The notes under the pieces are model-generated. The model ran no database searches and was not told where the DNA came from. It saw only the letters and a list, made by a program, of their open reading frames with translations. The position numbers and the translations under genes were made by a program. A stretch of DNA of 39,167 nt. Source: Nitrosomonas sp. Its GTDB lineage: Bacteria > Pseudomonadota > Gammaproteobacteria > Burkholderiales > Nitrosomonadaceae. The stretch's first letter is position 1. Each line of letters starts with the position of its first letter. The DNA lies in assembly GCA_021774195.1 (NCBI GenBank), contig JAJFJJ010000061.1, forward strand, positions 1 to 39,167, written 5' to 3'. This document shows positions 2,445 through 32,393 of the stretch, in pieces.

Positions 2445-5400
2445 ATGATTAATATGAATACAGTAACTCGCTGGACTTTACTTTTTCTGTTATTTTTTTT
2501 CTTGCCAATCTGTGTATCGCTTGCCCAGGAAGTTACACCTGTAGTAAAACCAGCCATCAACGCTGCTAATCAATCAGAAATCAAATTGGTGGCAATCAAA
2601 AAAAAAATTGATGCAATAACAAACAATACTATTCTTGAAGAGGTACTTAAGCAAAGAATTTTAGCCGCTTATTATGCGGCTGAAGCTAATATCGAAGATT
2701 TATTGATTTTAGAACAGGAAACTCAGACAGCTCAGAATCTGCTAAAAAATCTGCCTGCTGAAATCAAACAACTAGAACAGCGTATTAGCGCAACAGAAGA
2801 TCAGTTAAAAAATCGGCGAGAGAATAAGTTCCTAGATCATCCTATTGATGATCTGGAGCAACGTCTGATTATTGAAAAATCCAATCTAAATGAACTGAAA
2901 TCTGCTATTAGTCGGTTAGAAATTCAGATTGCTGAGCAGCTTAAATCACAGCAACAAATCAGGGAGGAAATGGCCGAAACCAATAATATACTGGCCAATA
3001 CCGAGCAGGAGCAGGTGGATTTGAGTACGCGGGCATTAAATAAGCTGGAAATCAAGGCACGCAATATGCAGTTGGATAGTCGTTTCAATAAGCTGAATGC
3101 GGCATTGAATAAGTTGAGCCTTGAGAACATCGTTTATCCGTTAAGCCTAGAGGCGCAGAAACTCGAACTGCAGTTACTGAATTTGCAAAGTAAACAGTTG
3201 TCAGGGTTGATTATACAGCTGGATAATTACCTGATTGAGAAAAGGCAAAAGGATATTGAGAAAGAGCGGGCAGCGTTAATTCAGGCACAGAAAGAAGCGT
3301 CCGGCAAGCATCTGGTCATACAAGAAGCGACTCGGAAAAGTATCCGTTATAACCAGTTGTTAAAGGAAGTTACTCAAAAGCTTGAGCAGTATCAGGACCA
3401 GAAACATGAAATAGAAGCTAGCTACAAGCAGTTGGAACATGATTTTCAAAGCGCCGAGCAGAAAATTAATTTGGCCGGACTCAGCCCATCGTTGGGTAAT
3501 CTATTGCGTGAACAACGCCGCAATTTGCCTTTGACTAAAGGCAATCAAAACTTAATTGACAGCTTACAGGAGGAGGTTGCACTAGCCAATTTGGAACAAT
3601 TTAAGTTGGATGAAGTAAAAAAATCTCTAGCTGATATAGATAAAGCTTTGCAGTCCAAGATGTCGCTTCATGTACAGGGTGATATTGACGAAGCTGAAAA
3701 ATTCAACATTAGTGTTGAATTGCGTGGTTTGCTAAATAATCAAAAAGAATTGGTTCAAAAGCTCACATCGGTTTATTCAGAATATGTAAGAACGGTCATT
3801 GATGTTAATTATTCCCTGCAACAGTTGGTTACTTTGGGCGAAAAGTTTGATCGCTATCTGAACGAGCGTTTGTTATGGGTGCCCAGCGCACCGGTGATTA
3901 ATAAGCATTATGCGGGTGAAATTCTTGAGTCTATTCTTTGGTTTAGCAAATTATCGTACTGGCAGCAACTGGCGGTAGATATAAAACACAGCGTACAAGC
4001 CAAACCATTACTAGCACTATTAGGCTTTTTTATAATTTCCTTGTTACTCGGGTTTAGACAAGCAATCAATATTCGCTTGCAGGATTTACTGATAAAAGCC
4101 AGTAAACCATATGCGGATCGCTTTATATTTACCTTTTATGGTTTGGGGTATATTTTTTTGTTAGTGCTGCCATTATTCCTATTGCTGGCTTGGCCAGGGT
4201 GGTTGTTGCTGATCAATAATCAGGTGGCAACTTTTAGCCATTTGGTGGCCGATGGGTTGTTGCGTGCTGCAATTCCATTACTGATTATTTCATTTTTTTA
4301 CCAATTATTTAAACCTGAAGGATTCGTGCAAACACTATTTGGCTGGCAAGAACACAGTATTCAGCTGTTGCACGGACAATTTAAATGGGTTCGCATTATT
4401 GTAATTCCTGCAATGTTTTTAATCGGCATGTTTGCTGATGGAATATACGCTGAACACAGCTATACGTTGGGCAGAATGGCATTGATTATTATCTTGCTGG
4501 CTTTAGCTTATGTCCTTCACCGTTTTGCACATCCTGTTACTGGGCTGGGAAAAGACTTTTATCGGGAAAACCCAACCAGCTGGGTGTATCGTTTACGCTA
4601 TATTTGGTATTTCGCTTTGGTATTTGCTCCATTGACAATCATCGGTTTTGCCATTGCCGGATATTATCAAAGTGCATTAGAACTGCAGTATAAATTAGTG
4701 CTTTTACTGCGCTTAATATTTTTTGCCGTGTTATTGCATGAAGTTGTTATGCGTTGGTTGGTGCTAGCCAATCGGCAACTAGCACTGCAAAATGCCAGAC
4801 AAAAACGTAAATTGCAAGAGCAAGCAGAGGGCAAGATCGGCGCTACGAAAATTAATCCAGAAGAAGAATTTTTGCTGGATATACCCCAAATCAATCAACA
4901 AGGTGAGAAGTTACTTAACGTTTTGATTATTGCCATTTTAGCTGTAGGCTACTGGCTGATTTTGCGTGATATGTTTCCCGCTTTTTCAATTTTTGAACAG
5001 GTGGTTTTGTGGCAGCATGTGGCCATAATAGATGGGCAGGAATCGCTGCAACCTATCACGCTGGTTAACATTTTTCTTAGCTTGTTGTACCTGGCGTTGA
5101 TGTTGATTTTTATCAAAAACTTTTCCAGTCTGATTGATTTGTTTCTTGTCGGCAGGTTCCGCATGACTTCTGGCAGTCGTTATGCGCTCATTCATCTGAC
5201 TCGTTATGCAGTGATTATCATTACTTTTATTGCCGTGGCTAGTGAGTTGGGCGGAAAGTGGTCGGAGGTGCAGTGGCTGGTGGCAGCAATTAGTGTTGGC
5301 CTGGGTTTCGGTTTGCAAGAGATTTTCGCCAACATGGTGTCGGGGATAATTTTGTTATTTGAGCGTCCCATCCGAGTGGGCGATACCGTGACGGTCGGCG

Positions 5401-5858
5401 AAGTTACCGGCAAAGTGAGTCGTATTCAGATTCGCGCAACAACACTGGTTGATTGGGACCAGAAAGAGCTGATTGTGCCAAATAAGATTTTTATCACCGA
5501 AAAACTTATCAATTGGACTTTGAGTGATACCATGACCCGCGTGGTCATACCCGTCGGTATCGCTTACGGTTCTGATGAAGAGCAGGCGTTGCGTATTATT
5601 AAACAGGTCATTGAAGAGTCACCGCTGATACTAAAAGAACCTGAACCAACAGTATTTTTTGTCGGTTTTGGTGAGAGTTCTCTGGATTTCTCATTGCGTG
5701 TGTTTGTACGCGGCATGGATGACAGATTTCCAGTAACTGATGAGCTGCATCGAAGAATTCTGCATGAATTCAAAGCGCACAATATTGAGATTCCATTCCC
5801 TCAACGCGATTTACATATTCGTTCGTCTGTACTTTCTAGAGAGCAAGTTCCCGTTTGA
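2445..5858 (+). CDS. MscK/KefA-type large mechanosensitive channel
   Basis: An 1137-residue inner-membrane channel of the MscS superfamily, long-subtype like MscK (KefA) or MscM. A hydrophobic signal sequence ends near residue 28 (VSLAQE). A Gln/Glu/Lys-rich coiled-coil periplasmic region covers about 45-500. About ten helices run from ~520 on, and the pore helix at ~940-975 contains the Gly/Ala-rich stretch ISVGLGFGLQEIFANMVSG. It is followed by the beta-domain (FERPIRVGDTVTVGEVTG) and the C-terminal alpha/beta domain. Length and order match the MscK/MscM group. Such channels release solutes on hypo-osmotic shock. A second Met at codon 4 is an alternative start. Whether gating needs K+, as in MscK, cannot be told from sequence. 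Confidence 0.93.
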   Translation: MINMNTVTRWTLLFLLFFFLPICVSLAQEVTPVVKPAINAANQSEIKLVAIKKKIDAITNNTILEEVLKQRILAAYYAAEANIEDLLILEQETQTAQNLLKNLPAEIKQLEQRISATEDQLKNRRENKFLDHPIDDLEQRLIIEKSNLNELKSAISRLEIQIAEQLKSQQQIREEMAETNNILANTEQEQVDLSTRALNKLEIKARNMQLDSRFNKLNAALNKLSLENIVYPLSLEAQKLELQLLNLQSKQLSGLIIQLDNYLIEKRQKDIEKERAALIQAQKEASGKHLVIQEATRKSIRYNQLLKEVTQKLEQYQDQKHEIEASYKQLEHDFQSAEQKINLAGLSPSLGNLLREQRRNLPLTKGNQNLIDSLQEEVALANLEQFKLDEVKKSLADIDKALQSKMSLHVQGDIDEAEKFNISVELRGLLNNQKELVQKLTSVYSEYVRTVIDVNYSLQQLVTLGEKFDRYLNERLLWVPSAPVINKHYAGEILESILWFSKLSYWQQLAVDIKHSVQAKPLLALLGFFIISLLLGFRQAINIRLQDLLIKASKPYADRFIFTFYGLGYIFLLVLPLFLLLAWPGWLLLINNQVATFSHLVADGLLRAAIPLLIISFFYQLFKPEGFVQTLFGWQEHSIQLLHGQFKWVRIIVIPAMFLIGMFADGIYAEHSYTLGRMALIIILLALAYVLHRFAHPVTGLGKDFYRENPTSWVYRLRYIWYFALVFAPLTIIGFAIAGYYQSALELQYKLVLLLRLIFFAVLLHEVVMRWLVLANRQLALQNARQKRKLQEQAEGKIGATKINPEEEFLLDIPQINQQGEKLLNVLIIAILAVGYWLILRDMFPAFSIFEQVVLWQHVAIIDGQESLQPITLVNIFLSLLYLALMLIFIKNFSSLIDLFLVGRFRMTSGSRYALIHLTRYAVIIITFIAVASELGGKWSEVQWLVAAISVGLGFGLQEIFANMVSGIILLFERPIRVGDTVTVGEVTGKVSRIQIRATTLVDWDQKELIVPNKIFITEKLINWTLSDTMTRVVIPVGIAYGSDEEQALRIIKQVIEESPLILKEPEPTVFFVGFGESSLDFSLRVFVRGMDDRFPVTDELHRRILHEFKAHNIEIPFPQRDLHIRSSVLSREQVPV

Positions 5859-6123
5859 CAGAGTGTTAGTTTGTAAGGGTATAGATAACGGCAGGTGTCA
5901 ACAGGTTTCCGTCCGAGCCTATTGCCTCATAAGCTTTAGATGTGGCTTTTTTGTTGTCGATAGTTACTTGTACTGCGAAAGCGATACTTCTGGATGGTCT
6001 TTGAATTCAAATATTAGTGCGTACTTGTGTGTTATTTCGGAAGTATGCAAATACACTTTCTTTAATTATTTACAGCTAAGTAGAAACCATATTTTCACAA
6101 TATATTAAATCGGGAATCACTAA

Positions 6124-7170
6124 ATGGAAGAATTATCAGTTGATGTTCTAGTTTGGGTCGGAATTTTGTTTTGTATCAGCCAGTCTGCCATGTTCTCTGG
6201 CCTAAACTTAGCATTGCTGGGCATCAGTCGTTTGCACTTGGAAGTTGATGTTTCAGCCGGAAATAAAGATGCAATAAAGATTTTAGCTCTGCGTAAGGAC
6301 TTCAACTTTCTTCTTGCTACGATTTTATGGGGTAATGTTGGCATAAATGTTCTTTTGACTCTGTTATCACATTCTGTAATGGCGGGGGTAGCTGCTTTCT
6401 TCTTTTCAACAATTCTCATCACATTCGCTGGTGAGATATTTCCACAAGCTTACTTCTCCCGTCATGCTATGCGGATGGGGGCACTGCTGGCGCCACTAAT
6501 ACGCTTTTATCAGGTCATTCTTTTTCCGGTAGCTAAACCTTCAGCGATGATGCTGGACTGGTGGCTAGGCAAAGAGAGTATCCCCTATTTTAGGGAACGT
6601 GATCTGCGATCAGTGATCCGCAAACATATAGAAGCAGAAGAGTCGGATGTAGATCGTCTGGAGGGCATCGGCGCTCTGAATTTTTTGGCACTAGATGATA
6701 TTTCCGTCACCCAGGAAGGTGAGAATATAGATCCTAATAGCATTATCAGCTTGCCAGTAAAAGATGGTATACCAATATTCCCAAAGTTTGAACGCCGCGC
6801 TCTGGATCCTTTTTTACTAGAAGTCAACAGATCTGGGAAAAAGTGGGTAATTATTGTTGATGAGCACGATCAACCGTGCATGGTGCTGAATGCGAATGCC
6901 TTTCTTCGTGAATCTTTGTTTGGTTCACGACCAATCAATCCTTACATTTATTGTCATCGCCCCATTATTGTCAAAGATTCGAGCACACTGCTTGGAAAGG
7001 TGCTATCTCATTTACAGGTGCATCCGAAATCCGAAGTGGATGATGTTGTTGATGATGATCTTATCCTCATCTGGTCTGATGAAAAACGGGTAATTACGGG
7101 CGCTGATATTCTTGGCCGATTATTGCGAGGTATAGCAATACGCGATATCAAACATTTGTATAAGGGTTAA
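6124..7170 (+). CDS. DUF21 (CNNM-like) membrane protein with CBS region
   Basis: This 348-residue protein begins with a DUF21/CNNM transmembrane domain of three to four helices (residues ~8-155), including the family-typical GEIFPQAYFSRH segment. A cytoplasmic region (~185-340) has the length and placement of a CBS-domain pair. CNNM/CorC-type proteins are linked to Mg2+ or other divalent-cation export. Unlike CorC/HlyC proteins there is no obvious C-terminal transporter-associated domain, so it is a short version. It lies 265 bp after the mscK-like gene on the same strand, with only a weak ribosome-binding site (GGGAA). Divalent-metal transport is inferred from the family. Confidence 0.8.
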   Translation: MEELSVDVLVWVGILFCISQSAMFSGLNLALLGISRLHLEVDVSAGNKDAIKILALRKDFNFLLATILWGNVGINVLLTLLSHSVMAGVAAFFFSTILITFAGEIFPQAYFSRHAMRMGALLAPLIRFYQVILFPVAKPSAMMLDWWLGKESIPYFRERDLRSVIRKHIEAEESDVDRLEGIGALNFLALDDISVTQEGENIDPNSIISLPVKDGIPIFPKFERRALDPFLLEVNRSGKKWVIIVDEHDQPCMVLNANAFLRESLFGSRPINPYIYCHRPIIVKDSSTLLGKVLSHLQVHPKSEVDDVVDDDLILIWSDEKRVITGADILGRLLRGIAIRDIKHLYKG

Positions 7171-7242
7171 CATTGTGATGTCGAGTACATCGGTTGGTGA
7201 AATTTAGTTAGCTTGGCAATGTTTGAACTTGCATGGTATTAA

Positions 7243-8469
7243 TCATTTGGCGATGGTGATAGCTGGGGGTGGCTTGGAGAATGTCGAATGCACGGACAGC
7301 TCGTACAGTTGACCGAGTAGACGAAATGCTTCGAGATTCCAGATGGCTTCTGGATTATCACCATTTAGAATGGAATAGGTGCGATCTTCATAGGATATTG
7401 AAAATGAGCCTTTGCCCAAATCACTCGATCCATCTTCGATCTCCATGGTTTTAACTGGATTGAGCCGAACTTCACCAGTTCGAGCGTCTTTTTCAACTGG
7501 AAACTCTACTTCTTCTGATATCCCTCGCCCCAAAAATTCCAAAACAGCCAAGAATGCACGCAATCTAATAACGCCATGGAACGGATAGTCTCCCCCAGGT
7601 GATCCAGGGCGAATATCAACAAAAATTTCGTTATTCGGCAATGCATTAGTGTACAAAAAGAGTTTGTTTCTTTCTTCAACAGTGAGATCCGAAACATCAT
7701 AGTTGCTGACTATAATTCGCCCGGCAACATTACGACTCAAAGTCCCCTTATTATCGTCTTCCGCCCAGCGATACCCTGTTTCCAAAGCATTTACCACGGT
7801 TTCCAAGTGATCGTTCTCCTTAGTAGAAAATGTAATAGTCTGTTGCACCACGATTGGCGCTACAAATAAGTGATGAGTATGATTCAAAGCGGTCAGATGC
7901 AATACCCTTCGACGGAACTCTTCATAACCTTTCCCACGCCTGGGAATATTGCGTAAAATTCGGTCGTCTCCCTTTTGATCAGCACGCAGTTCGCTGGCCA
8001 TCATTCTGATAAGAAGTCCAATATCCTCTCCTTGTTGATACAATCTGAAAAAATTGTGTTCTGAGTACGGGCTGAGTACCCGCTGATTAAATTCATCTCC
8101 ATTAACCGGAATAATGGTGATGGTCGGGTTCTCGGATATACCCGTCCCAAAGATCGGCGAAAGTCCTTGTCCAGCCGTTATTGCACCTAATGGCGGCACG
8201 GCTCCTGCGTTCATTTGAAAGCTGAACGTTGCGGCCACGCTCGACATAGTTGTGAATTGTATAGGGTGATGGTGCCGCACTCGCGCGATATTCAGCAGTA
8301 GTTCGTTTGCCCTGATTTCATTTATTGACTGATTATAGGCCAAGGCCGCCTTATCAAGTGCCATGGGCGACAAGCACCCATTAAGAGTTAGCAACCCAGC
8401 TAGACAGAACATTGTGCAGGTATATCGAAACAGCCTCCCAGGCTCTTTAGAATTGAGTTGCGATATCAT
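7243..8469 (-). CDS. Uncharacterised lipoprotein
   Basis: I do not recognise a named family. The 408-residue product has an N-terminal hydrophobic segment ending in a lipobox (LTLNGC, Cys32), so it is probably an envelope lipoprotein. The mature start has a conserved-looking stretch (NELLLNIARVRHHHPIQFT) followed by a Gly/Ala/Pro-rich segment and a mostly alpha/beta soluble region without membrane helices. The first Met is used because later ones would remove the basic n-region. It converges with the DUF21 gene, with 72 bp between them and no clear terminator. The neighbours give no functional clue. Confidence 0.75.
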   Translation of the reverse strand: MISQLNSKEPGRLFRYTCTMFCLAGLLTLNGCLSPMALDKAALAYNQSINEIRANELLLNIARVRHHHPIQFTTMSSVAATFSFQMNAGAVPPLGAITAGQGLSPIFGTGISENPTITIIPVNGDEFNQRVLSPYSEHNFFRLYQQGEDIGLLIRMMASELRADQKGDDRILRNIPRRGKGYEEFRRRVLHLTALNHTHHLFVAPIVVQQTITFSTKENDHLETVVNALETGYRWAEDDNKGTLSRNVAGRIIVSNYDVSDLTVEERNKLFLYTNALPNNEIFVDIRPGSPGGDYPFHGVIRLRAFLAVLEFLGRGISEEVEFPVEKDARTGEVRLNPVKTMEIEDGSSDLGKGSFSISYEDRTYSILNGDNPEAIWNLEAFRLLGQLYELSVHSTFSKPPPAITIAK

Positions 8470-9043
8470 GAGCGGGATATAAGAAACAAAATATTCTCTT
8501 CTTTAAGTATGAATTGAGTTGGTTTTCTAACACATTTAAGAACTAACTTGAATATTACAGTAACTACTACAATTTTATCGTAATATTGTTATATATTGAG
8601 CCTGCTCGCAGTCACTATAAACGCTGTCCAGCGCGTGATAACATTTGTTGCAGGATATAAAGTTGGCAGAAAAACGATTTCGCGTACAGCGTTCACAAGA
8701 TGTTTCGTAGTAAGGCGCAGCACGCAGGCAATGGTTATTCCCTTGACAAGGGAATAACCATTGCCTGTAAGACCTGCCTTGCCAGTAACGCTGAAAAACT
8801 AACTGTATCCGAAATTAGCAAGTTGAAGGAGTACTAGGAGAGTACCAAGGAAATTCTGATTAGCAGTTAAGAGATTTACTTCCAGAACGCTATACGTAGT
8901 TTGCTGGTGATACTTCTATATCCTCTTGCATTCATCGCGGCAGCGACTATTAATTCGTAATGCCAAGCGTTTTTTTGTTGATTTGGTTTTTTTGTGTTAG
9001 CTTTTTTCTTTATGGAACCCTGAAACTCTAGTATTCACTGATA
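8470..9043. other. Intergenic region holding a large palindromic repeat
   Basis: A 574-bp gap between the divergent lipoprotein and pqiA genes. Its main content is the inverted repeat at 8673-8815. The remainder is AT-rich, and I see no gene. The pqi promoter is presumably in the last ~150 bp, but no clear -35/-10 pair stands out. Confidence 0.6.
8673..8815. repeat. Palindromic repeat with perfect 21-bp core arms
   Basis: The core is a perfect inverted repeat, arms 8725-8745 and 8747-8767 around a single A at 8746. Outside it, both sides continue as a diverged inverted repeat (for example 'atttcg..gtacag' on the left against 'ctgtatccgaaat' on the right) to about 8673 and 8815. There is no T-tract, so terminator function is unlikely. 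The right half (8747-8783) resembles the end of the window (39129-39166), indicating a repeat family. Confidence 0.75.
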
Positions 9044-26086: not shown

Positions 26087-26854
26087 TCAAGACTTAAAGA
26101 ATAGCACCAGGGTATTTTGGAATTTTTCTCGAAGTGCTTTTAAATGATCTTTTTGTACACTTAACTTGTCTTTATCAAACCAAGGTTCGGCCAAATACAA
26201 AGCTCTGCTGAGTTCAATCTGTATCCATGGAGTAGGTTTGTTGCCATAAGTGCGGGTTGTAAATCCACCTGAAAAAGGCTTGTCGATTGTGATTTCAGTT
26301 GCATCTAATTCAAAAGTCGTTTGAAAACATTCTGCCAGTTTTTGCGCTATGTCCATCGAGCAACTTTCCCCCCGGTTTGTACCTAAACAGATGGTGGGTC
26401 TTTTCTGTCCCCGGTCAGGCGATATTTCTGGACCGATCGCTTCCATGCTGTGACAATCCAGCGCAAGCTGTATGTCGGGATGCGTGTCGAGTAGCTGGTA
26501 AATTTTTTGATGATAGGGGTGATAATATCTTTCGATGAGTAGTGCAGAATCCTCTGGAGATAATTCTTTGCCCGGTGTGTAAATAGCTTTACCGTGACAG
26601 GTCTTGGTTTTAACAATGCCATCTGGGTTTTTAGGCGGCAAATCATTGGTATCTCGATTCAGGTCGATAAAAGCACGGGCGTAAGGCGTGTCCATGTAAG
26701 CGGTGACGGAATCCTTAAGGCCATAAATCTCACGTGTGAAAGCATCTCCATCTGCAAATAGATCTTGCTGTGATAGGCAAAGATGATCTTTGATCTCCAT
26801 CGGCGTTTCATCGCCGCCATGAGGAACAGAAATCAGAACGGGTAATTTTCTCAT
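26087..26854 (-). CDS. N-formylglutamate amidohydrolase family protein
   Basis: A 255-residue cytosolic hydrolase of the FGase (HutG-like) family. Family motifs are ISVPHGG, FIDLNRDTND, ALDCHSMEA, PFSGGFTTRTYG and IQIELSRALYL. Known members cleave N-formyl-L-glutamate to formate and glutamate at the end of histidine degradation. No other hut gene is in the window, so another N-acyl-glutamyl substrate is more likely. Its ATG overlaps the end of the gamma-glutamyltransferase gene by 4 nt, implying coupled translation with it and with the ATP-grasp fusion. Confidence 0.93.
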   Translation of the reverse strand: MRKLPVLISVPHGGDETPMEIKDHLCLSQQDLFADGDAFTREIYGLKDSVTAYMDTPYARAFIDLNRDTNDLPPKNPDGIVKTKTCHGKAIYTPGKELSPEDSALLIERYYHPYHQKIYQLLDTHPDIQLALDCHSMEAIGPEISPDRGQKRPTICLGTNRGESCSMDIAQKLAECFQTTFELDATEITIDKPFSGGFTTRTYGNKPTPWIQIELSRALYLAEPWFDKDKLSVQKDHLKALREKFQNTLVLFFKS

Positions 26855-28479
26855 TGGGGGCCGGCGGCAGTTCCATCCCGACGTATCTCAGCCACACCTT
26901 GGAAATCACCGGAAGTCTGGCACTTTAGAACGGCATGGATAGCGCCTAAATAAAAGGAATACGGTTCCTTACGAGCTATTTTATAGCCGACACTTTCAAG
27001 ATAGGAAATTACTGCAGGGTCATAACGATCAGCCTCTAGGCTGAGGGTTCCACCGATGGAGCAATGCAGTCTGGGGTGGGTCATGGCTTGATCAATCGGC
27101 AGATCGGCATCGATAATATGTGAAAGAAACTGGCTGATAGCGGAAAATATTCTTTCACTTCCAGGGCTCCCGGCAATTAGCCAGGGCTTATTATTATGAA
27201 AAACAAGTACGGGTGACACCGAACTCCATGGAATCGCATTGGGTCGGAGATAATACGGATGTGATGGATCTTTTGTTTCCAGCGCACTCATGTAATTATT
27301 GTAGAGAAACCCAAGCCCACGGGCTGCAGACCTTGATCCATATACGCGTTCAATCGACTGAGTAATACCCACCGCATTGCCATCTTTGTCCATGACCGAA
27401 AGATGCGTGGTATCGCTTTCCGCTGGATAGGGATCTACCATGGGCAGCGTAGGATCAATTTGATCCCGAATGGATGAAGACAGTGCCTTGGCATATTCTC
27501 GGCTTAAAATTTTCTTTTCATCTAAGGTTTGGGGATAGGTGTTGGGATCAAAAGGCCGTTCCTTTCGGTTGATTAATGCTTTCCTAAAAGTTTCCGCCAT
27601 AAAATGAAATGATTCTGGTGAAGCTTTTTTGAGAAACTTTGATGGTAGATTATTCAGCATCAATAACACTAAGAGAAGTGTTCTTCCTGAGGTTGGTGGT
27701 GGGCAGGAGAATACCTGTGTATTGCGGTATTTTCTTTTCAACGGTCTGCGTTCCACTGGCCAAGGAATTAATGCAAGATCTTCTGCGCGCAGGAAACCAC
27801 CATGGTCACGCATATCTTCATCTATTTTTTGTGCAATTTCTCCCAAATAAAATGGGTGAACACCTTCAAACGCAATATTCTCGAGCAAATTTGCTAAATC
27901 ATCTTGTTGAAACAGGTCGCCTTCATTATAGGGTTGACCATTCTTGAGAAAATAATCAGCACCAGATTTTGAATCGACACTATGAAATGCTTCCATCTCA
28001 CGTGTCTGAAGCGTATGTTGAAGCTGAGTAATGGCATAACCGGTTCTGGCAATGTGTATGGCCGGTTCAAGAATCGTCTTCCAGCGCAACTTTCCGTAAC
28101 GAAAGTGCATGTGGCCAAGGACAGCAGGTGTGCTCGGGACCGTTGTCGCTCGATAACCGGTAAATCGCTCTGTTTTTTCGATGCTGTCCATGTGCGTCAA
28201 GGAAGGAACCCGACTGGAACCATCAATGGCAATTGTTTTGCCATTGATGTGCATGAGTGCCATGGACTGACCGCCGATGCCGCTGGCTTGTGGTTCACAC
28301 ACGCATAATGCAAAGGCTGCTGCACAGGCTGCATCAACCGCATTGCCACCTTGCTCCAACATTTGCACACCAGCTGCCGTCGCTTCTGGAAAAGCGGTAG
28401 AAACCATTCCTTTTGTTGAGATAGCAGATTTTCCGTCTTCGCTAGGACGAAATTTTTTCTCAACGGTACTAATAATCAT
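26851..28479 (-). CDS. Gamma-glutamyltransferase family protein, apparently cytosolic
   Basis: A 542-residue N-terminal-nucleophile hydrolase. The autoprocessing site and catalytic Thr are present (SDTTHLSVMDKDGNAV, nucleophile T357), as are GGNAVDAACAAAFAL near the N-terminus and GSPGSERI near the C-terminus. Most bacterial GGTs are exported, but this one starts with a charged MIISTVEKKFRPSED and has no signal peptide. It is probably cytosolic and may act on a gamma-glutamyl product of the neighbouring ATP-grasp ligase; that is inference. It overlaps both neighbours by 4 nt. Confidence 0.94.
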   Translation of the reverse strand: MIISTVEKKFRPSEDGKSAISTKGMVSTAFPEATAAGVQMLEQGGNAVDAACAAAFALCVCEPQASGIGGQSMALMHINGKTIAIDGSSRVPSLTHMDSIEKTERFTGYRATTVPSTPAVLGHMHFRYGKLRWKTILEPAIHIARTGYAITQLQHTLQTREMEAFHSVDSKSGADYFLKNGQPYNEGDLFQQDDLANLLENIAFEGVHPFYLGEIAQKIDEDMRDHGGFLRAEDLALIPWPVERRPLKRKYRNTQVFSCPPPTSGRTLLLVLLMLNNLPSKFLKKASPESFHFMAETFRKALINRKERPFDPNTYPQTLDEKKILSREYAKALSSSIRDQIDPTLPMVDPYPAESDTTHLSVMDKDGNAVGITQSIERVYGSRSAARGLGFLYNNYMSALETKDPSHPYYLRPNAIPWSSVSPVLVFHNNKPWLIAGSPGSERIFSAISQFLSHIIDADLPIDQAMTHPRLHCSIGGTLSLEADRYDPAVISYLESVGYKIARKEPYSFYLGAIHAVLKCQTSGDFQGVAEIRRDGTAAGPQ

Positions 28480-30683
28480 GATTTAAAGTTATTTTCAGCG
28501 CGATGAATAGTGAGTGCCAATAAAACCGCTCGATCAATTAAGCTGTCTCGAACAACATATTCATCTTTTCTTCCGATATTCCCAGTGACAGGACCAAATC
28601 CATCAAGAGATGGAATCTCATCAGGTACATGGCTTAATGAAGTGCCAATATCACCGTGCGATTTCTTGGTGCGAACTTCGACGATTTTTGCCAATTGTTC
28701 GATTTTTTTGTAAAAAGACAAATCATCTTCAGATTCCAATAACGGTCTACGTTGGTGCCCACGAGTAATATGCACATGAATAGGCCATTTGGGATCAGAT
28801 TTAAATAGCTGGTACACTTCTTTTTCGAGATTATCTTTCTGCTGAGGCTGTGGATAATGAATGCGGAATGAAAGTGACACGTGATCAGGTGCCGTGTCTT
28901 CTCCACCTTGGGTTTTTATGTTGGTGATAATGACCGAAATACCCGTTTCTTTGATGCCAATCTTCTGAAGCTTTGAGATTTTATCGCTGACATAGAGTAA
29001 CGGATCAGTTTGTTTGTCTGTTAGTTTAGCGTTAATTTTATCCGAGGAACGGTTAATTTCAATGCTGTAACGCAAGATTCCTGAACAGGAAGTAATGATT
29101 TCTCCGGCTAGACCAGCGCCTCCCAGACCAATCACATAAGAGGATTTTCGGGAAAGTTCTTCAATCAACGGCTTGGAAGAGCGCCCACTGAGTGATTCGT
29201 CAGAGATAAGAAGAATTCCACATTTTACTTTTTTTAAGTTTCGCGTGTAATGCAGTGCTCGCAAAGCACTAAGTAAAGTGGCCAGCCCCCCTTTTCCTCT
29301 AGATACACCAGAACCATAAATTCTTCCCCGCTCTTCCCGAAATGGCACAAAATCAGAAAAGGGAATGGCATTGTCCAGATTGCCCAATATCAATATATCG
29401 TTATGATCACTGGCGTGATTGCTAAAATATAAATTATTAGCAAATTCCGCACGCGGAAAAACTTGACGCTGAAACTTGAGATTCTGAATTTGATTAGCAA
29501 TCCAACGACCAAATGAATTAATGCCTTCAATATTATGCACGTAAGAATTAATGCTAACCATTTTGGCGAGGTCTTCTTCCATGGTGCCCAAATTGCCGCG
29601 CAGGTAGCTTCGAAGTCGTACATTGATAGGCAGTTTATTGTTTTTTGCTGAACTTTGAGAGAGCAGCTTCTCGTCAGTCGATATTTGATCAATTTGTTGG
29701 CTTCCAAAATACCGTTCGACAGCAACATCCAGCATTCGGTTAACCAAAGAATCATAGGTGTACCCAGCTGCTTTGGCAGCTGTTACGTAAGATCCTGTAA
29801 ATCCCAGGCTAGCCATAGAATTTAATTCCAGCACATAGAGATTGTTGTTTTCATCCATGCGGAAATCAATTCGGCAAAAATCATAAATCCCTAGAACATG
29901 GGCCGTTTCTTTGGCAAGCCGTCTCAATTCTTCGGCTAGGTTGTCTTCAACGAGCGCTGGGCATATTTTCGCTTTGGGGGTTTTTAATTTGTCATCCAGG
30001 CTTTGAATTGCATTGGGGTCTCCTTCCAAGTCAATCTCAACAATTGGCAAAGTTTCAGGGTCTTGGTTACCTAAAACGCCAACAGCAAATTCACGTCCCG
30101 GAATGAATTTTTCTACCAAAACGGGTTGATTAAATTCCTTGACTAAATTGCTGATGGCTACTTGCAGTGCTTTTTTATTATCAAGCACTTCAATACCCAT
30201 GGATACCGCTTCCATTTTGGGTTTTATAATGACTGGATAGGGAAGGTCATCGGGAACCAGGTCAGGTGACATAAGAACCCAGAAAGGTGCCGTTGGGAGT
30301 CCACTTGATTCGAGCATCATTTTGGTCGTTACTTTATCTAGTGCAACGCCATGTCCGGCAGGGCTTGATCCGACATAAGGGATGCCGCTCATTTCCAGTA
30401 GGGAGGGAATGTGAGTATAGCGGCTGACACCCTGTAAGCCATAAGCCATATTAAATACCATTCCAGGCTTTTCACCTTGTACAACGCGTGGCATAAAATT
30501 GGTCAGTTTTTCAATGACATTGATGTTGCCCTCAATGATGCGAACATTGTGGCCGCCTTTTTCCAATGCGGATGCAACCCGTTCAACGGTTTGCGGATTA
30601 TAGACTTCCCGATTCTGCATGCCGAAAACATTGATGACACCATCCACATCCTGGCTTTTATTGTAAATAACTGCGACTCTCAT
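28476..30683 (-). CDS. D-Ala-D-Ala-ligase-like ATP-grasp fused to degenerate M20 peptidase
   Basis: A 735-residue fusion. Residues 1-325 form a Ddl-like ATP-grasp ligase: VIIKPKMEAVSMGIEVL (~151-167), VEKFIPGREFAVGVLG (~190-205) and the metal-binding RIDF...VLELNSMASLGFTG (271-297). Residues ~355-730 align with M20 peptidases, but each zinc-ligand position is changed: N435 for His (LGNLDNA), R462 for Asp (GVSRGKGG), S497 for Glu (SDESLSG), G521 for Glu/Asp (VIGLGGAG) and R705 for His (NIGRKDEYV). The general-base Glu (E496) and one Asp (D437) remain. The second half is therefore probably a binding or dimerisation module, not a protease. It heads the operon with the gamma-glutamyltransferase. 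The ligase substrate is unknown. Confidence 0.85.
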   Translation of the reverse strand: MRVAVIYNKSQDVDGVINVFGMQNREVYNPQTVERVASALEKGGHNVRIIEGNINVIEKLTNFMPRVVQGEKPGMVFNMAYGLQGVSRYTHIPSLLEMSGIPYVGSSPAGHGVALDKVTTKMMLESSGLPTAPFWVLMSPDLVPDDLPYPVIIKPKMEAVSMGIEVLDNKKALQVAISNLVKEFNQPVLVEKFIPGREFAVGVLGNQDPETLPIVEIDLEGDPNAIQSLDDKLKTPKAKICPALVEDNLAEELRRLAKETAHVLGIYDFCRIDFRMDENNNLYVLELNSMASLGFTGSYVTAAKAAGYTYDSLVNRMLDVAVERYFGSQQIDQISTDEKLLSQSSAKNNKLPINVRLRSYLRGNLGTMEEDLAKMVSINSYVHNIEGINSFGRWIANQIQNLKFQRQVFPRAEFANNLYFSNHASDHNDILILGNLDNAIPFSDFVPFREERGRIYGSGVSRGKGGLATLLSALRALHYTRNLKKVKCGILLISDESLSGRSSKPLIEELSRKSSYVIGLGGAGLAGEIITSCSGILRYSIEINRSSDKINAKLTDKQTDPLLYVSDKISKLQKIGIKETGISVIITNIKTQGGEDTAPDHVSLSFRIHYPQPQQKDNLEKEVYQLFKSDPKWPIHVHITRGHQRRPLLESEDDLSFYKKIEQLAKIVEVRTKKSHGDIGTSLSHVPDEIPSLDGFGPVTGNIGRKDEYVVRDSLIDRAVLLALTIHRAENNFKS

Positions 30684-30763: not shown

Positions 30764-31592
30764 TTAGTGCTTTCGGTAGGTTTGTTCCAAAACGCCGAAA
30801 GTTATTTGTTGTTCTAACTCGGTTGCTTTTTCAGTAGGGCAAAAAACAATAATTGTGATTATATGCTTAGCATATTCATTAGTGCTAATAATTATTCGCG
30901 GTTCAGCCCCTGGAAAATCCACGCCGGTATGTTTTTCTATATAAGTGTTATATCGTTTAGCGACTTCAATGAATTCAATGGAAAAACTATCGATCTCTGC
31001 AGCAATCCAGTCACATAGTTTGGATACATTAACACTTGGTTCAATAACAATATCAAAACTGTGAAACACGTAGCGTTTGGAGAAATTCAGGTTTTTTTAC
31101 AGGCTCGGATAAAAACAGACTATTAGGAACTGTAATTGTCTTGCCTGTATAGGTGTAATTATTAGGGATTTTATCAAGTTCCTGCAAAGTTGTGGAGAAA
31201 ATATTGTAGTCAATGACTTCGCCTCTATGTGGACCCACTTCTATCCAGTCATTAATAGAAAATGTACCAGAACCTGCGCGCATTAATGCGCCACTAAAAC
31301 ACAAAATCAGTTCTTTTGTTGCGATCACCAATGCCAATGCCACGGCGGCAATTGAAAAAGCAAAATTACTGAATTCTGACCACCAAATACTAAATAAACC
31401 AATAAAAATGATTGACCAAGTAAGATTCTTAACTCGGGTTGTCCACTGTCTTTGTCTTTCAGATAGAATGGAACTATTACGTTTGATGAAATGAATGAAG
31501 ATGATTCGAACTAACAACAACAACACAATTAATAGGCAACTTTGTAATGATTTGTTGTTTAGTAGAATAATGGGTAGTTCATGAAGCGTCAT
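30764..31592 (-). pseudogene. Small MscS-family channel, frameshifted
   Basis: The first part (31592-31053) encodes membrane helices, a pore-like helix (ALVIATKELILCFSGALMR) and the MscS beta-domain (INDWIEVGPHRGEVIDYN...ITVPNSLF). The second part (30764 to ~31075) encodes the C-terminal alpha/beta domain (FHSFDIVIEPSVN). They meet near 31079-31080, where removing one base of a CC pair (minus strand) gives PEFLKRYVFHSFDI and one continuous protein of about 275 residues. It is therefore one gene with a 1-nt frameshift or a sequencing error. It lies upstream of the ATP-grasp/GGT operon on the same strand. Confidence 0.8.
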
Positions 31593-31819: not shown

Positions 31820-32240
31820 AAAGGCTATACAACTGGTTGTTACCAATTGTTTGGACACCTAAATATCGACACAAGGTTCTGCGAGGAGAAATACGAGAAA
31901 GGGTTTGCACAATTGTTCGCCAAGTTTGTAAGGAGATGGGCGTGACGATTGTGCATGGTATATTGTCGGCAAATCATGTGCATATGTTCGTAGAGATACC
32001 GCCGCACATTGCTGTTAGTCGTTTTGTGCAACTAGTGAAGGGACGATCTTCACGAGAAGTTCAGCAGGAGTTTCCAGCATTGCACAAACGATATTGGGGG
32101 CAGCGTTTCTGGGCCAGCGGCTATTTTGTACGACAAGTGGTAACATCACTGACGAGATCATATTGCAGTACTTGGAAGAGCATTCAGAAAGTGCTAAAGG
32201 CTTCCAGCCCAAACTCGATCCTACCGGCGCCAGCCGATAG
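31820..32240 (+). pseudogene. tnpA: IS200/IS605-family TnpA transposase remnant
   Basis: The central frame (31837 on) reads IVWTPKYRHKVLRGEIRERV, then ILSANHVHMFVEIPPHIAVS with the HxH metal site of Y1 transposases, and KGRSSREVQQEFP...RYWGQRFWASGYF. The N-terminus (GYTTGC) sits in another frame after an apparent deletion near 31840. After GYF the catalytic-Tyr end (TSGNITDEIILQYLEEHSE) continues in a third frame because of a 1-nt loss near 32126, ending at the stop at 32238-32240. Two frameshifts make it non-functional. I could not define the element ends. Confidence 0.88.
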
Positions 32241-32393
32241 TGGTTCAGTGTTTTGACTCATTTGGTTTATAGTAAAATAAATGAGGTGTGCTGTTATACT
32301 GGTTTCTCAATAAAGGCCATTACTTTCGATAAGAACTTTATCAACAGGTTAACTGCTCTTTTTTACTGTCAAGTACCAGAATGATCATGTCTC

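Follow-up and report, generated by a model that had tools for sequence, protein, structure and literature searches.

The contig JAJFJJ010000061.1 of a Nitrosomonas sp. genome (assembly GCA_021774195.1), analysed over its full 39,167 nucleotides and hereafter called the window, carries on its reverse strand an operon of three genes, the first of which encodes a protein of 735 amino acids (aa) in which a Ddl-like ATP-grasp ligase is joined to an M20-like domain devoid of the zinc ligands of M20 peptidases. This fusion gene is followed by a GGT-like and then by an N-formylglutamate amidohydrolase (FGase)-like gene. The anatomy of both fusion and operon is close to certain, and comprises the following features:

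28476..30683, minus strand: fusion gene, Ddl-like ATP-grasp ligase plus zinc-less M20-like domain, 735 aa (Pfam, PDB sequence and fold matches, AF2 model)
29709..30683, minus strand: ligase half, aa 1-325, with seven catalytic residues invariant
About aa 326-350: linker inside the fusion protein
28479..29633, minus strand: pseudo-M20 half, about aa 351-735, with N435, R462, S497, G521 and G704 all non-canonical
26851..28479, minus strand: GGT-family Ntn hydrolase, 542 aa, overlapping the fusion gene by 4 bases; retains catalytic Thr357, with replacements at the positions of E. coli N411, Q430 and D433
26087..26854, minus strand: FGase-like enzyme, 255 aa, PF05013, overlapping the GGT gene by 4 bases

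The fusion protein and its operon partners

A first-pass annotation of the window, made from the sequence alone, had described an ATP-grasp ligase joined to an M20-like domain, with which the fold, Pfam and PDB matches agree. The nearest relatives of the ATP-grasp half are D-Ala-D-Ala ligases, the nearest fold of the M20 half is carboxypeptidase G2 (CPG2), and this half has the fold expected of an M20 metallopeptidase. Conservation was assessed in an alignment of 64 rows (63 loci and the window); 13 of the 76 loci found in the genome scan described below were left out as partial, split, over-long or not called (L062, L071, L073, L082, L091, L093, L094, L097, L098, L101, L103, L104, L106).

Regarding the ligase half, residues K154, E191, R197, R271, D273, E286 and N288 are invariant (64/64), consistent with the earlier view that this half looks competent. 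It has the ATP-grasp fold and the catalytic Arg, Asp, Glu and Asn of D-Ala-D-Ala ligases (PF07478), with 28% identity to DdlB (8evy) in the fold alignment; E26, also invariant, could correspond to either Glu15 or Glu17 of DdlB, one residue of the Ddl rows having been lost in the alignment. Unlike Ddl, this half is joined to an M20 domain, occurs in archaea and scores below the NCBIfam cut-offs (PRK01372.1, 152 bits against 243; TIGR01205, 136 bits against 245.65). The M20 half likewise reaches 92.4 bits against a cut-off of 357, and no family reaches its cut-off for the fusion among the 25 of 62 matched NCBIfam families listed. The counterparts of E. coli DdlB Ser150 and Tyr216, which we take to form the D-Ala site, are replaced: column 160 holds V in 41, T in 22 and M in one of the 64 sequences, and the five commonest residues of column 233 are L (36), K (17), M (3), V (3) and S (2). 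Because both positions have changed, the ligase substrate is probably something other than D-Ala. A role in peptidoglycan was considered and ruled out by the presence of the operon in archaea and of an ordinary Ddl (L128) elsewhere in the window genome; as its archaeal hosts have no peptidoglycan, the enzyme is not a wall D-Ala-D-Ala ligase in them.

For the M20 half, the zinc-ligand columns (435, 462, 497, 521 and 704) were set by co-aligning five ordinary M20 proteins, each with 5/5 ligands. The window protein has 0/5, so that the replacement of all five ligands proposed in the first-pass annotation stands, as do four of the residues it named (N435, R462, S497, G521), while the fifth, R705, was off by one, the column being occupied by G704. 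None of the canonical ligands is kept in 30 of the 64 sequences, one in 33 and two in a single sequence; homologs with an intact set, which would have counted against the first-pass reading, are absent from the alignment. The columns read mostly N, R, S, S, G in the Nitrosomonas/Nitrospinota group (31 rows) and mostly H, E, S, K, R in the remaining 33 rows, from archaea and various phyla. Since every one of the 64 sequences has at most two of the five ligands, and the diverged fusions L116 and L117 retain 1/5 and 0/5, ligand loss is fixed in all the sequences aligned and would appear to be old. Column 496, corresponding to the general base Glu175 of CPG2, holds E in 15, D in 40 and other residues in nine sequences. 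Substitution of lysine or arginine side chains for the zinc is a weak explanation, without support in the numbers: K or R occurs at the five columns in 57/64 sequences, and 1037 of 5000 random column sets match this. In Latescibacterota, an ordinary M20 protein with 5/5 zinc ligands is encoded as a separate gene directly upstream of the zinc-less fusion (L102, 8702-9895).

Both halves of the fusion are under strong purifying selection in Nitrosomonas. In seven pairs, the ratio of nonsynonymous to synonymous substitution rates (dN/dS) is 0.010-0.032 for the ligase half and 0.029-0.141 for the M20 half, with silent sites saturated in some pairs, so relaxed selection was not seen and the pseudo-peptidase is conserved, as had been suggested. 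Conservation is lower in the M20 half than in the ligase half (mean majority fraction 0.56 vs 0.74). What holds of the initial interpretation is that a conserved pseudo-peptidase is joined to a ligase with invariant catalytic residues; its substrate-binding or carrier role is one that we infer. The first-pass annotation did not mention the two hydrolase genes of the operon, the occurrence of the operon in bacterial as well as archaeal nitrifiers, or the Mg2+ and osmotic genes that often lie nearby.

The gene order was examined in the 65 copies longer than 690 aa (L031 left out, the over-long L091 included). The GGT gene lies immediately downstream of the fusion gene in 49 of them, with a gap of -4 in 32 of these, and is followed by the FGase gene in 36 of the 49; among the other 13, a different gene follows in six and the sequence ends in the rest. 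No gene of the GGT/FGase cluster was seen adjoining the fusion in L055, L083, L089 and L102. GGT genes also adjoin the diverged fusions L116 (genome G106) and L117 (G109). The latter (5194-8964) encodes a protein of 1257 aa with about 540 extra N-terminal residues lacking a Pfam match, and has a GGT gene on each side.

The GGT-like protein resembles GGT (T03 family; E. coli GGT, 2e0w) in its catalytic Thr, present in 58/58 proteins of the GGT family encoded at the loci (including a few from outside the operon), and in passing TIGR00066 (362.1 vs 357.85 bits). It differs from GGT at the positions of E. coli N411, Q430 and D433, presumably the residues that hold the gamma-glutamyl amino group, which are each replaced in 57/58 proteins (N411 by E, Q430 by Y, D433 by residues other than D), and the enzyme therefore probably has another acyl group as its target. 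No signal peptide is visible by eye at its N-terminus, another difference from GGT, and it is probably cytoplasmic. The FGase-like protein matches PF05013 (169.5 vs 28.9 bits) and has the domain and motifs of the N-formylglutamate deformylase HutG, with PHGG, DxNR, DCHxM and QxExxR intact in 43-44 of 44 proteins; it misses the cut-off of the HutG model TIGR02017 (109.8 vs 278.75 bits), and no match to PDB sequences was found at E 0.01.

Distribution among nitrifiers and other lineages

Two exact peptide patterns were searched for in 84,980 genomes, an approach that misses members without these patterns, and 76 loci were detected. They lie mainly in Nitrosomonas, Nitrospinota and Nitrosopumilaceae; one or a few loci each are labelled Binatia, Gemmatimonadota, Dehalococcoidia, Chitinivibrionales, Latescibacterota, Coatesbacteria, Polyangiaceae, Ignavibacteria, Planctomycetota, Woeseiaceae and other lineages. 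The carrier genomes are mostly bins, some labels of which may be wrong, and the copies labelled Planctomycetota and Woeseiaceae group within those of Nitrospinota. The fusion gene is present in 13/85 genomes of the genus of the window (window genome included), in 23/77 Nitrospinota genomes (including two chosen carriers and three partial matches) and in 10/151 sampled genomes of the archaeal phylum (chosen carrier included). In the viral_contigs set, two pattern matches were obtained, neither of them a relative. Among the carriers with strain names are Nitrosomonas marina Nm22 and Nm71, N. aestuarii Nm36 and Nitrosomonas sp. Nm51; PMC10308925 assigns the first two species to cluster 6b, which is frequent in coastal and marine environments.

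In a tree of 65 rows (the 64 alignment rows and L111 of genome G006), built by a quick method with SH-aLRT support only, the Nitrosomonas copies are split over three positions within Nitrospinota, pairing the window group with L033 (97), NMNS01 with L047 (99) and the marina group with L049/L055 (98). This placement suggests repeated transfer between ammonia oxidisers and nitrite oxidisers, although binning errors could mimic part of the signal; the marina group, however, holds named strains.

Genomic neighbourhood of the operon

The operon of the window is accompanied by the following genes:

30764..31592, minus strand: small MscS-type channel gene adjoining the operon, read in two frames as two open reading frames (ORFs); in the relative L032 it is one ORF of 275 aa
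24145..25509, plus strand: gene for one of the two MgtE-type Mg2+ transporters of the window genome
21432..23895, plus strand: Zn-protease (PF05618), RimK-type ligase and AstE/AspA-like gene
31837-32256: IS200-like transposase (PF01797, E 8e-33), between the MscS gene of the operon and aconitase

The two frames of the MscS gene reflect either a frameshift or an assembly error. The Zn-protease, RimK and AstE trio recurs close to the operon at three loci of Nitrospinaceae (L038, L045, L048), and trio and operon may together form a shared island of glutamate chemistry and salt adaptation.

Neighbours were scanned at 39 loci picked for spread and flank length (141 genes, up to two per side). The six commonest Pfam families were CBS (12), MgtE_N (10), MgtE (7), MscS (6), CorA (5) and Ion_trans (4) among the 25 of 152 families listed, the CBS, MgtE_N and MgtE counts representing largely one protein type. 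Of 12 whole genomes, with 0-3 MgtE copies each, four (G000, G101, G103, G111) have MgtE at most about 5 kb from the operon, and four (G000, G101, G103, G104) have MscS no further than 3.2 kb away; in the window genome both MscS genes found by family search are on this contig. A long CorA (frames of 549-560 aa) is present in 10/10 operon-bearing archaea, within 5 kb of the operon in eight, and in 0/35 searched operon-free archaeal genomes (141 operon-free in the phylum sample). A seed search for six ion or osmotic families detected a member within 5 kb in 32/75 loci. An excerpt of PMC7554672 discusses gains of osmotic genes (ectoine, MscS) in these archaea, and that excerpt does not mention the operon.

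Proposed function, alternatives and related systems

The function of the operon and the substrate of its ligase are inferred. We tentatively propose that the operon is biosynthetic, serving some nitrifiers of marine or estuarine water along with other lineages, and that in it the ATP-grasp half, on the strength of its fold and catalytic residues, would convert a carboxylate to an acyl phosphate and join it to an amine. The M20 half, without the ligands of the catalytic zinc pair, would have lost hydrolysis and been retained as a binding or dimerising scaffold presenting a carboxylate-bearing substrate to the ligase. This substrate is probably glutamate-like, because the closest solved relative of the M20 half is CPG2, a glutamate carboxypeptidase. 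The GGT-like and FGase-like enzymes would trim, transfer or recycle the product; the known members of both families have glutamate amides as substrates. The product itself would be a small glutamate-type amide or peptide, for which accumulation in osmotic or Mg2+ homeostasis is suggested by the neighbours and hosts. Taken as a whole chain, this is quite possible, though short of probable. A narrower version, that of a previously undescribed kind of enzyme for solute synthesis in which the metal-free M20 scaffold is the acceptor-substrate site of the fused ligase and the product a new glutamate-derived osmolyte or Mg2+ counter-ion, passed by gene transfer among marine and estuarine ammonia-oxidising bacteria, nitrite oxidisers and ammonia-oxidising archaea, is rather unlikely in all its particulars.

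Several observations weigh against the osmotic or Mg2+ proposal. The next gene is not GGT in 16/65 copies, several archaea having GGT a few genes on, and none of the six ion or osmotic families was found within 5 kb in 43/75 loci, including the N. marina group; the 75 loci include short or partial ones, many of the 43 contigs are short, and the seeds overlook members such as the MscS gene beside the operon in G104. The 35 operon-free archaea were drawn nearly in list order across the phylum, unmatched for relatedness to the carriers, neighbours and phylogeny are not independent, and host habitat was taken from record titles and one paper. Mutual exclusion with ectoine synthase was also considered and set aside, since it says little: the synthase occurs in 6/85 and the operon in 13/85 genomes of the genus, with an overlap of 0 where about 0.9 is expected by chance.

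The limited reach of the salt and Mg2+ neighbours would also suit a glutamate-type amide with a non-osmotic role, such as a metal chelator, redox cofactor, signal or nitrogen store, in which case these neighbours would merely share a marine genomic island. Islands do travel together, as the recurrence of the RimK/AstE/Zn-protease trio near the operon illustrates, but the neighbour types recur via different families across phyla, with MgtE found in Nitrospinota and Binatota, CorA among archaea and MscS in a third of the whole genomes, and we regard this as a real, if lesser, possibility. With two of the three operon products belonging to hydrolase or transferase families, the operon might instead serve salvage or proofreading, the hydrolases breaking glutamate amides, the ligase rebuilding the peptide and the pseudo-M20 half sensing peptide or Mg2+; the tight coupling of GGT to an ATP-using ligase points to synthesis, however, and makes this unlikely.

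An M20 half that is still active, with another metal arrangement or metal-free, would account for the retention of D437, K464-G465-G466, D495 and E708 in at least 90% of rows and of His435 in 32/33 rows outside the Nitrosomonas/Nitrospinota group. Given that no sequence retains more than two ligands and that the two groups have no substitute pattern in common, we consider it very improbable. Decay of the fusion gene in this genome, as the two-frame reading of the neighbouring MscS gene might hint, is scarcely credible, being contradicted by the dN/dS analysis, in which the three closest copies all have an open frame and M20-half values of 0.029-0.052.

The locus adds a selected pseudo-peptidase in bacteria and archaea, within an operon common to three co-living nitrifier guilds. 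If the proposed solute is made, part of the handling of changing salt by some marine nitrifiers would be explained, the zinc-less M20 domain would gain a role, and the operon would become a genetic marker for a salt trait.

Searches limited to open-licence PMC papers listed no description of the fusion or operon. Among known systems, the M20 half differs from CPG2-type peptidases (1cg2) in lacking the zinc-ligand set and in being joined to a ligase. N-acetylglutaminylglutamine amide is a compatible-solute peptide of glutamine and glutamate made by different enzymes, and the operon would likewise make a glutamine/glutamate peptide solute. The MysD-type ligase of mycosporine synthesis is a Ddl-like ligase turned to a small-molecule pathway; we know of no M20 fusion among MysD-type ligases.

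Other Ddl-like ligases were observed during the survey. A stand-alone Ddl-like ligase (L018, 11-2451; similar matches in L012-L030) is encoded in many Nitrosomonas, the majority of which lack the operon; in L018, the locus scanned, it adjoins a GNAT acetyltransferase and a DAP-epimerase-like gene and was read as part of another small-molecule pathway. In L115 (6723-8633), a Ddl-like ligase domain stands behind a 7TM_transglut membrane domain near HlyD-like and PGA_cap genes, with matches of the same cluster in L113 and L114. A Gemmatimonadota genome has two overlapping Ddl-like ligase ORFs beside a lysine-2,3-aminomutase-like gene (L122, 2448-6340).

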